Origin: Pyrodictiaceae archaeon
GTDB taxonomy: Archaea > Thermoproteota > Thermoprotei_A > Sulfolobales > Pyrodictiaceae
Direction: 5' to 3'
Length of the DNA: 64,000 bases
Assembly (NCBI GenBank): GCA_027036135.1
Contig: JALVSY010000007.1
Location: 686,880-750,879, forward strand
In this document: one piece after another, positions 5,565-30,755 of the stretch
Numbering within the stretch: position 1 is the first letter of the stretch
How the letters are laid out: every line of letters begins with the position of its first letter
Program-made: the position numbers and the translations under genes
Notes under the pieces: model-generated
Seen by the model: the letters and a program-made list of their open reading frames with translations, nothing else
Database searches by the model: none
What the model was told of the DNA's origin: nothing

Positions 5565-5612
5565 TAAATACTCCAACCCCTGGTGCACCACTTTACGGAT
5601 ACTGGTGCACAA
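5565..5612 (+). promoter_or_regulatory. cbiM promoter with TGGTGCAC operator-like repeats
   Basis: A TATA-like TAAATAC (5565-5571) is followed by the perfect 10-bp palindrome TGGTGCACCA at 5581-5590 and by TGGTGCACAA at 5603-5612, centres 22 bp apart. The expected transcription start (about 5594) falls between them, a typical position for repression. The repeats suggest a metal-responsive regulator (a NikR- or DtxR-like function), but no such regulator is encoded nearby. A third GTGCAC at 5630-5635 is the start codon plus His codon of cbiM and need not be an operator. Confidence 0.4.
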
Positions 5613-5629
5613 GAGGAGGTCAAGGAACC

Positions 5630-6298
5630 GTGCACATACCAGATGGCTACCCCAGCCCAGCATAGTGCATAGCACTCTACATAGTAACCATAGCCTACGG
5701 CATCGTGGCCTGGAAGAAAGCCAAGAAGATAATCAATAGCGAAACCATAACAGCGCTATCAGTACTAGCAGCTGGCATCTTCGTAGCAATGATGTTCAAC
5801 TGGCCAATACCCGGCGGCACATCACTGCACTTCGTAGGAGGGGCTCTATCTGGCATAATCATTGGCCCATGGCTAGCATTCTTCGTCTACGTAATGGTGT
5901 TGACGACTCAAGCGATAGTGTTCCACGATGGAGGCATAACAACGCTTGGAGCAAACATCTTCAACATGGGAATAGTGGATGTAGTAGTCGGGTACGCAAT
6001 ATACAAGCTAGTAACAAGAGCCATGGGGAACACGAGAAGGGCTAGAATAATAGGAGCGTTCCTAGGGGGTTGGCTAGGCCTAGCAGTAGCTGGCACAATG
6101 GCTGGTATAGAGATAGGGCTCAGCCCTTCATTCCCCTACGGCATAAAGATAACAGTGCCAGCTATGGCCATATGGCATACACTACTCGGAGTCATAGAGG
6201 GAATAATAACGGCATTCGTCATCGACTATCTCTATGAGAGGAAGAGCCCGCTAATAGAGATAGCCATGAAAGTTGCACCCCTAGCTCAAAACACATAA
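5630..6298 (+). pseudogene. cbiM/nikM Ni/Co ECF transporter S component with in-frame TAG at codon 12
   Basis: From GTG 5630 the frame reads V/M-H-I-P-D-G-Y-P-S-P-A, then TAG at 5663-5665, then C-I-A-L-Y and on without a break to 6298. MHIPDG is the invariant N-terminus of CbiM/NikM, whose amino group and His2 bind the metal. The start has a strong Shine-Dalgarno GAGGAGGT at 5614-5620 with 9-nt spacing. The body (from GTG 5705) is a five- to six-helix membrane protein with the CbiM 'GGALSGIIIGPW' and 'FHDGGITTLGANIFNMGIV' blocks. The amber codon therefore separates the metal-binding N-terminus from the protein. Reinitiation at GTG 5705 would give a protein lacking helix 1. Either an inactivating mutation or a sequence error. 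Confidence 0.8.
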
Positions 6299-6328: not shown

Positions 6329-6616
6329 ATGTCGCTCTTCGAGAGATACAAGAACACTATAAAGATTCTAACCATACTAATAATTATTAGCCCCTTATTC
6401 GGCATAGTCTTGGCGGAGAAAGTGAACTACCATGAACCCGTTGACGTTGTTGCAGAGAAGCTTCATCTACACGAACTAGACATATACCATACACCTTTCG
6501 ATAACTATGAGGTACCGGGCTTGCCGCCAACCATAGGCTACATCGTGGCAGGCTTCATAGGGATTGGCGTAATACTTGGAGTAGGAGCCCTCTTAGCAAA
6601 GAGACTGAGCAAATGA
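6329..6616 (+). CDS. NikN/PDGLE-type ECF nickel/cobalt transporter auxiliary subunit
   Basis: A 95-residue membrane protein with one helix near the N-terminus (after 'KNTIKIL') and one near the C-terminus ('TIGYIVAGFIGIGVILGVG'), enclosing an extracytoplasmic loop ending 'PFDNYEVPGLPPTIGY', typical of archaeal CbiN/NikN/PDGLE proteins. The canonical PDGLEW is degenerate here (PVDVVAEKL). ATG 6329 is preferred over the in-frame GTG at 6317 because GAGGAGGTG (6311-6319) sits 9 nt upstream. It lies between cbiM and cbiQ, overlapping cbiQ by ATGA. Intact as far as can be seen. Confidence 0.7.
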   Translation: MSLFERYKNTIKILTILIIISPLFGIVLAEKVNYHEPVDVVAEKLHLHELDIYHTPFDNYEVPGLPPTIGYIVAGFIGIGVILGVGALLAKRLSK

Positions 6617-7384
6617 CCCTACTCGATAAAGCGGCGAGGAAGTTCGTAGAAGAGGTAAGCGACTCGCTAACGGCACTATCATCTACTAGGACCGAGCCCC
6701 CACCATTACCTGTTCTTTTTACCCCAATGCTCCTCGTATCAATTCTTATTCTTTCACGGCCAGCAGTGAACACGTGCATCCTCCTCGCCGCCGCCACCTC
6801 GTCGGTACCGCTTCTCGTAGCCTTGATGAGGCATAGGGAGGAGTACTATCACCGCTCTCTAGCGAAAACCGGGGTAATGATTGCCGCGTTCTCCACTATA
6901 GTAGCTGCACCACTACTAGTAACTAGTCCGGGGAGCCTTTACCGGCTTCATCGAGCGCATATCCGTGCTAACGCTAGAGCTTATAGCAGTAACCAGGGTA
7001 ATTGGGTAGCCAGCACTACTAGCCTCCCTGGAGTGCATAGGTGTCCCAAGCGAGCTAGTCCAAGCAATAGAGTTAATGACTAGGCTCATCCCGCTCCTAT
7101 CGCTTGACGCGCTACGCTTCATAGAGGCTAGGCGTGCCCGGAGCCTAGGAGAACAAGGAGCGAGAAAGACGTGGCATGTACTAGCTACTGCCCTCTCAGT
7201 CCTCCTCGAGAAGAGCTATGAGCGAGGGCATCGTCTCTCCCTCGCGATAAGGGCTAGGCGGTTAGGCGCACAGAGCCCTACGAGGAATAGGCGTTGCTTA
7301 TCCGGAGGGAGCTTTCTCGGGGCCCTAGCCTATCTGCCATTGATAAGCACTATTGTCTCCTACGTGGTGGCCCGCTTTGCCTAG
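6613..7384 (+). pseudogene. cbiQ ECF transporter T component, frameshifted and with in-frame TAG
   Basis: The frame starting at ATG 6613 codes for the first membrane helices of CbiQ to about 6930 ('APLLVTSPG') and then becomes non-protein-like. CbiQ coding resumes one base over at about 6935 (AFTGFIERISVLTLELIAVT), meets TAG at 7007-7009 between 'VIG' and 'PALLASLE', and continues to 7384. The last part has the coupling-helix motifs of the T component, 'FIEARRARSLG' and 'AIRARRLG', which bind the ATPase. One indel and one nonsense substitution (a Tyr codon would fit at the TAG) are needed to restore a full protein of about 256 residues. The 5' end overlaps nikN by 4 nt, as expected in an operon. 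Confidence 0.75.
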
Positions 7385-8174
7385 CTTGGAGGCGCGTAGT
7401 ATCTGGTTTCGTTACTCTAGGGTAGATGGTTACGTGCTAAGGGGAGCCGAGCTATATGCATCACCGGGCGATGCAGTAGCTATAGTGGGCCCAATGGGCT
7501 CGGGTAAAACCACGCTATTAATGATACTTGCTGGGCTCCTTAACCCGGAGAAAGGCGTCGTAAGGCTCGGCGACACAGTAGTAACGGGAGGCGGGCCCGG
7601 GGCTAGGCAGATGGTGGGAATAGTATTCCAAGACCCCGACGAGCAGCTCTTCAACCCCACGGTTTACGACGAGTTGGCATACGCGCTACGGACAATGGGG
7701 CTAGGGGAGGACGAGATAAGGGAGAGGGTAAGAATGGTGGCTGAGAGCCTTGGTATTAAGGACCTGCTAGGGAGACCTCCTCACCGGCTTAGCTATGGCC
7801 AGAAGAAACTGGTCGCGCTAGCGTCGGTTCTTGTTTATGAGCCGTACCTATTGCTGCTTGATGAACCAACAACAAACCTTGACAAAGAGTCTTTCGAGAA
7901 GGTTCTCGGACTTATAAACAAGTACCGGAACGAGAACAGAATAGTAGTGATAACCACCCATGACATCGATACAGTCATCCGTGCCTCCACGAAGCTATGC
8001 GTGCTAAGTAACGGTGTACTTGAGTGCAGTAATACCTGGGAAGTACTTGGGAAGGGACTAGATGCTCTCCCAGTGCCAGTGCCTATCAGCCTAGAGGTAC
8101 TTCTTCAGAGAGAAGGCAGCTGGGAGAAAGTAGCAGTAATGCTTCGCCGCATCATAGAGGGCCAAAGCTATTGA
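7377..8174 (+). CDS. CbiO/NikO ECF transporter ATPase
   Basis: A roughly 265-residue ABC ATPase with all motifs: Walker A GPMGSGKTT, Q-loop VFQDPDEQLFN (the DPDEQ form is typical of ECF/CbiO ATPases), signature LSYGQKK, Walker B LLLLDEPT and H-loop TTHD. It would energise nickel/cobalt uptake with CbiM/NikN/CbiQ. TTG 7377, overlapping the cbiQ stop and 7 nt after GGTGG, is taken as the start; TTG 7353 is also in frame. The ATPase is intact although its membrane partners are disrupted, so any inactivation would be recent. Confidence 0.85.
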   Translation: MPSLEARSIWFRYSRVDGYVLRGAELYASPGDAVAIVGPMGSGKTTLLMILAGLLNPEKGVVRLGDTVVTGGGPGARQMVGIVFQDPDEQLFNPTVYDELAYALRTMGLGEDEIRERVRMVAESLGIKDLLGRPPHRLSYGQKKLVALASVLVYEPYLLLLDEPTTNLDKESFEKVLGLINKYRNENRIVVITTHDIDTVIRASTKLCVLSNGVLECSNTWEVLGKGLDALPVPVPISLEVLLQREGSWEKVAVMLRRIIEGQSY

Positions 8175-29323: not shown

Positions 29324-30755
29324 TTACCGATACTTCATTATCCTTTTCGTTGCCTCGATGGCGTAGAAGAAGCCTATTACTTCTAGACGCCCAAGCAACA
29401 TCAGTATCATGAGTATCGCTTTAGCCGAGAACGAGGCTGTAGCTGAGGTTATTCCCACGCTTAGCCCTACAGTGCCCAGGGCACTGGCTGCCTCAAAGGC
29501 CGCGTCTATGGCTTTGTACTCGGGATTGAAGGCTAGGAGGGCTATTGTACCAACCATCCATGCTAGGAAGAAGAACGATATTACGGCAAAGGCGTTTAGT
29601 AGCTCGTTTTGGGATGTCTTGTAGCCGCCTACACACCTTGTTATTATTACGCCCCCGTATACGGTCTCTTTTATGCTCCACCAGAGGTTCTTGAAGAGTA
29701 TCATGAGGCGGTACTGCTTTATACCACCGGTTGTTGAGAGCACTGAGCCGCCTACGAGCATTAGTAGGGAGAGAATTAGCTTCCAGACCGGGTGCGCCTT
29801 GGATAAGTCGCTTATGCTGAATCCGGTTCCGGTTACCGCGCTTATCGCATGAAACGCAGCTTCTCTTAACGGGTTGTAGGGGCTCCACGTTATCCCTATG
29901 TGCCAGAGTATGAGCGCGGATAGCGACACCGACACTATTATTGTTACTAGTAGCGAGTTTATTTCCCCGCTTAGTCGCCTCCGCTTACCAACCAATAGCG
30001 CATAGATATCGGCGAAGTTGGATGCACCCATAATCATGCCCGCGAGCGCTGCCAGCTCCACCTTGACTGCGTGGTAGAACGCTATACTAGCGCTATGCGT
30101 GGAGAACCCGCCAGTTGCCAGGGCCGTCATCGAGTGATAGACTGCATCGCTGAGCGTCATACCGGCCCAGTAGAGGAGTGCAGCATCTATATAATAGGAA
30201 GTAGGTGGCCATCAAGGCTCTTAGGCTTTTGGCTATGCTTGGTTCTAGTCTCTCGTATCTGCCCTCTGCTAGGCCTACGAGGTGAGCTGGGAGCCCGCCT
30301 AGCCGGGCGAACACGAAGAACATAACCACTATGCCGAAGCCTCCTAGCCACTGGCAATAAGCCCTCCACCACAAAATACTCGGAGGAAGCTGCTCCACGC
30401 TGGGTACATAGCGGTGGAAAAACGGGTCAACACCACCAGTGAACACAGAGAGACCAGTAGTAGTATAGCCACTAATACTCTCAAACCAAGAATCAACCAA
30501 GGGTATATGGAGAACAACACTAACCGGAACAGCAGAGAAAAAAGGAGTCAAAACCCAAGCAAGAGCAACAAGTATGAATGCCTCGTTTTTGCTAAGGCTT
30601 CTGGACGGCTTTACGAACATGAACCATATGCCGGAGAATGCTAGGTACGCGGTAGCCCAGACTAGTAGTTGAAGCGAGTAGGTGACGTCACCCGATAAGA
30701 GCCCTGTTAAGCCAGATAGGAGATGGGTTATTCCCGCGGCAGCAACAGAGACCAT
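29324..30755 (-). pseudogene. trkH-type K+ uptake permease, split by a frameshift
   Basis: Two minus-strand frames together make one TrkH/KtrB-like protein of about 477 residues. The 5' part (from ATG 30755) has 'GYTTTGLSVFTGG' and 'GGFGIVVMFF' selectivity-type loops; the 3' part has 'SMTALATGGFSTHS', 'AVTGTGFSIS' and 'ALGTVGLSVG'. They join at 30188-30194, a TATATA run: reading '...YFLLY' then one step over to 'DAALLYWAGMTL'. Adding one TA dinucleotide would restore 'YFLLYIDAALLYWAG'. A slippage mutation or an assembly error is likely. Without repair the pore would be incomplete. Confidence 0.8.

Follow-up and report, generated by a model that had tools for sequence, protein, structure and literature searches.

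A probable recent nonsense mutation in cbiM points to loss of an ECF nickel/cobalt importer in a Pyrodictiaceae archaeon

In the genome analysed here (G000), the gene of CbiM, the substrate-binding subunit of an ECF nickel/cobalt importer, is interrupted by an in-frame TAG, which is most probably a recent TGG-to-TAG nonsense mutation by which the function of the importer has been lost. The gene lies in a stretch of 64,000 nucleotides (the window, C7:686880-750879 of this genome) of which a preliminary description had left four options open for the TAG, namely inactivation, assembly error, readthrough, and reinitiation at a downstream GTG. That description did not mention the two breaks in cbiQ, which lies two genes downstream, nor the proline that codon 8 of cbiM encodes in place of leucine. 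With three disabling lesions spread over two genes and an invariant residue replaced in addition, inactivation is chosen over the other options. Readthrough and reinitiation are unlikely.

The interrupted operon

All features described here are on the forward strand, and positions are those of the window unless a contig is named. The Shine-Dalgarno sequence GGAGGT (5615-5620), which is identical in the closest relative, stands 9 nt ahead of the GTG at 5630-5632, and from this GTG the residues HIPDGYPSPA, the TAG at 5663-5665 and the residues CIALYIV follow in a single frame that ends with the TAA at 6296-6298, exactly as had been described before. The interrupted gene, cbiM/nikM (5630-6298), is present in a single copy according to a profile search of the contigs; the residues past the TAG match Pfam PF01891 with 192 bits from profile position 12 on, and their PDB relatives are the CbiM/NikM chains of 4m5b, 4m58 and 5x3x. 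As all full-length CbiM relatives examined begin at this position, with M, V or L followed by the HIPDG that marks the conserved N-terminus of the family, the GTG at 5630 can be regarded as the true start, in line with the earlier proposal, and judged by the same alignment a misread start does not explain the TAG. The closest relative, contig JALVKZ010000172.1 (L026, hereafter the sister), aligns over 3.9 kb with 90% DNA identity, shares the GTG start and has TGG (Trp) at the position of the TAG, and Trp is also found there in 9 of the 18 other relatives aligned, which bears out the expectation of a sense codon in close relatives. Codon 8 (5651-5653) is CCC (Pro), a position at which the sister and each of the 18 relatives in the alignment have Leu.

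The genes of the other subunits follow in the same operon. The cbiN/nikN-like gene of the small PDGLE subunit (6329-6616, Pfam PF13190, 28.7 bits) is intact, and cbiO, encoding the ATPase (7353-8174, ABC_tran, 94.5 bits), is open. The T-subunit gene cbiQ (6613-7384) is the sole PF02361 match in the genome and has a stop within; it is broken by a frameshift in a G run (6930-6933) that is one base longer than in the sister, and by another TAG at 7007-7009, in the frame that follows the shift, which is a TGG in the sister. The sister's counterpart of cbiQ is an intact reading frame of 256 aa. In its M-N-Q-O order, its PF01891 domain with the HIPDG start, its PDGLE-type N subunit, its CbiQ-type T subunit and its ABC ATPase, the operon is like the group I ECF systems CbiMNQO/NikMNQO to which the structures named above belong, but it differs from them in that CbiM and CbiQ are interrupted, whereas the operon of the sister is intact. 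Intact frames for a working complex are thus absent, and the lesions of cbiM and cbiQ are absent from the sister at all three sites. Ribosomes that start at GTG 5630 would halt after 11 residues, which would part the metal-binding N-terminus from the membrane part, and with a T subunit that is disabled twice, readthrough of CbiM would not be expected to restore the complex.

The pairwise dN/dS against the sister is low for all four genes (M 0.072, N 0.076, Q 0.134, O 0.189), which suggests that selection kept acting on the operon during most of the period after the two lineages separated and that the breaks are either recent or errors; because the values are this low (0.07-0.19), the breaks must, if they are real, be very recent. 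They are then too recent for dN/dS to tell whether selection has been relaxed, yet the leucine-to-proline change has hit an invariant site of CbiM. For the three disabling lesions in the operon of about 2.5 kb, the rate in 431 other genes would let one expect 0.07-0.10, which corresponds to a rough Poisson P of about 1e-4 if independence is assumed. Neither CbiM nor CbiQ was found in G004, a complete genome from the same genus, and for this reason a loss of the importer appears to be tolerated in the genus. What is seen here is most likely a known kind of event, an ordinary gene loss caught early in an unusually legible context. There is no essential difference to ordinary prokaryotic pseudogenes, with which the operon shares lesions that are missing from a close relative, a function for which there are alternatives, and old purifying selection that is still visible; special to this case is that one can point to the gene that likely serves as the replacement. 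In another complete genome of the same order (G035, C1:792902-793430, L022-L025), CbiM is also fragmented, with stops and changes of frame.

Assembly error

If the stops and the additional G were artefacts of sequencing or assembly, the cbi operon of the strain would be intact. This possibility was weighed by a lesion survey in which 431 genes (411 kb) were compared with the non-overlapping reading frames of G004 as reference, within the 1.66 Mb of the genome that were also used for the motif and anticodon counts described below (about 0.55 Mb lie outside this set). About 10 of the 431 genes are broken, compared with about 1 in the reverse check on G004, and this higher frequency would fit an error-prone assembly. 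The lesions are clustered in transport operons and comprise point stops, single-base indels and a tandem duplication. The broken genes include those of proteins that we take, from reading the proteins and not from a family search, to be TrkH, a slipin, a MATE protein, an acyl-CoA ligase, a PAPS-reductase-like protein and a HEPN protein, in the last of which a Trp codon of G004 is TGA. At about position 30191 of the window (C7:717070), the gene of the TrkH-like potassium transporter carries a frameshift when compared with G004. In an amino-acid ABC operon (C7:883250-885564), four frameshifts are found in three consecutive genes, which may reflect decay or a poor assembly stretch. The break in the slipin gene is a tandem duplication of about 34 bp (C7:1038820-1038911), and in-frame TAG codons are found at C7:1099734 in the acyl-CoA ligase gene and at C7:757766 in the PAPS-reductase-like gene, where G004 has Trp and Glu, respectively.

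The run of four frameshifts in the ABC operon, the position of the cbiQ insertion in a G run, where a sequencing error might well be expected, and the low dN/dS of the cbi operon are all compatible with errors. However, errors would have to be strongly clustered for three disabling ones, together with the change of an invariant residue, to fall into a single 2.5-kb operon, and point stops as well as the tandem duplication in the slipin gene are untypical of homopolymer errors. The lesioned genes encode transporters and other probably dispensable functions, and no lesion was detected among 31 genes with more than 90% identity. A real loss would also have a reason, given that the operon is absent from G004 and that another nickel transporter, a NiCoT permease, is present. 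Real decay is therefore clearly favoured, and an intact operon behind a faulty assembly is unlikely.

Readthrough and reinitiation

Inactivation presumes that the UAG is a stop, and readthrough by a suppressor tRNA, by pyrrolysine or by a programmed mechanism, which would result in full-length CbiM, is very improbable. The frame is open on either side of the TAG, and a change from TGG to TAG accounts for two of the lesions in the cbi operon and for one in the acyl-CoA ligase gene, as one would expect if TAG could be decoded. As to the decoding ALTERNATIVES, a PylS profile search of the genome gave nothing over the cut-off. The Rfam search of all contigs gave 48 tRNA matches, the anticodons that ARAGORN can read are normal, the tRNA-Trp (C7:921904) has the anticodon CCA, and after a re-reading of the intron-bearing tRNA genes there is no tRNA with a CUA anticodon among those found, the anticodon counts covering 1.66 Mb. 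Two odd calls of ARAGORN in intron mode, 'tRNA-Pyl (cta)' and 'tRNA-Stop (tta)' (L180, L181), come from near-identical isoacceptor genes that are tRNA-Gln with the anticodons CTG and TTG when the intron is taken to lie at 37/38, an identity that is based on manual reading. With neither PylS over the cut-off nor a suppressor among the tRNA genes found, decoding by pyrrolysine or suppression was rejected as unsupported. A general use of TAG for Trp was rejected as well, as TAG is the commonest stop codon (244 of 525 genes) and only one other Trp-to-TAG change was found in the survey. Readthrough at the cbiM stop would furthermore leave the frameshift in cbiQ uncured.

Just as improbable is reinitiation at the GTG at 5705-5707, from which the list of reading frames has an open frame of 197 aa that would give a shorter CbiM lacking the N-terminal metal ligand and altered in its role: this GTG is not the start of the family and has no ribosome site ahead of it, none of the CbiM homologues examined begins there, the first residues that would be missing belong to the substrate site of the family (PMC6828968), and the partner CbiQ is broken.

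Alternative nickel uptake and a shared upstream element

The genome encodes a NiFe hydrogenase as well as the large subunit of a class II-type RNR, which is why nickel and probably also B12-type needs remain. A loss of the ECF importer could be tolerated through other nickel uptake, by the NiCoT permease and a NikA-like ABC system. The NiCoT gene (C7:535560-536681) is intact, with a PF03824 match of 338 bits, a TIGR00802 match over the cut-off, and the motif RHALDADH that agrees with the family signature RHAxDADH. No NiCoT was found in 19 other genomes of the family, and the identity of the gene to genes of a different family (f11), which we take to consist of Sulfolobales-like genomes, reaches 74%. 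The gene is also AT-rich (0.413 versus 0.503, with 5.5% of windows equally low). The NiCoT gene has thus apparently been acquired from outside the family. Surveys have already reported NiCoT from Sulfolobales and ECF systems from Desulfurococcales (PMC2667541). Of the 229 genomes examined in the class, NiCoT is present in 26 and CbiM in 57, and G000 is the only one that has both, where 6.5 would be expected; the hypergeometric P of 0.004 ignores kinship, and NiCoT is mostly from one family. It is thus probable that CbiM and CbiQ were lost because another nickel importer had been acquired.

A further link between these genes is the element GTGCAC-N16-GTGCAC, a candidate operator of a nickel regulator, which is found at 5583-5610 and ends 19 nt before the start of cbiM. 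Exact GTGCAC pairs with a gap of 16 occur four times in the 1.66 Mb, and a single further pair is found across the remaining gaps between 10 and 23. The four exact sites (5583-5610 in the window, C7:536699, C7:109254 and C16:115302) precede cbiM, the NiCoT gene, a NikA-like gene and the gene of the NiFe hydrogenase small subunit, the NikA-like gene encoding a family-5 binding protein that, among named models, matches NikA best, albeit below the cut-off of that model. Sites with one mismatch precede hypB, hypD, a CobN/BchH-like gene and a few others. Upstream of cbiM, the element is also present, exactly or with one mismatch, in the sister and at L004, L010 and L013, whereas the NiCoT gene of G000 differs in this respect from the Sulfolobales-like permeases of the same families to which it is otherwise alike, as five close homologues checked from f11 do not have the element.

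GTGCAC-N16-GTGCAC may be regarded as a candidate NikR-like operator. The operator of E. coli NikR is GTATGA-N16-TCATAC (PMC7055735), that of delta-proteobacterial NikR is GTGTTAC-N13/14-GTAACAC, and the consensus varies between groups (PMC545781). Like NikR operators, the element consists of two six-base half-sites that are 22 bp apart and stands before nickel transport and hydrogenase genes; its half-site GTGCAC differs, but its spacing matches that of the E. coli operator. A tblastn search with an approximate NikR sequence as query led to a NikR_C protein (C16:227962-228351), for which PDB and Pfam served as an independent check. Its metal is uncertain because the gene adjoins that of an ABC permease which we take, by our own reading, to be of a metal type. 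As to the metal of the importer, the fact that the element is common to the NiCoT, NikA-like and hydrogenase genes, and with one mismatch to hypB and hypD, points to nickel, while the one-mismatch site at the CobN/BchH-like gene and the presence of the class II RNR are on the side of cobalt. Altogether this suggests that nickel was the metal of the ECF system and that the NiCoT gene has been taken into the same regulon, in which the apparently foreign NiCoT and the NikA-like system would share the candidate operator that lies upstream of cbiM. It is conceivable, as a tentative reading of somewhat less than even likelihood, that a transporter swap is in progress, in which a Sulfolobales-like NiCoT was acquired and gained the nickel-regulator element of the host, and the native ECF importer under that element has just become non-functional.

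Biological meaning

The TAG by itself would be an ordinary pseudogene mutation, and it gains weight in that a replacement and a shared regulatory element can be named. A false lead is also removed, as neither UAG readthrough nor a CbiM form without its metal ligand is needed to explain the gene. For the family to which this archaeon belongs, a nickel regulon can be predicted, and the cbi operon would be a recent case in which the nickel importer of a hydrogenase-bearing hyperthermophile has been displaced by a non-orthologous one.
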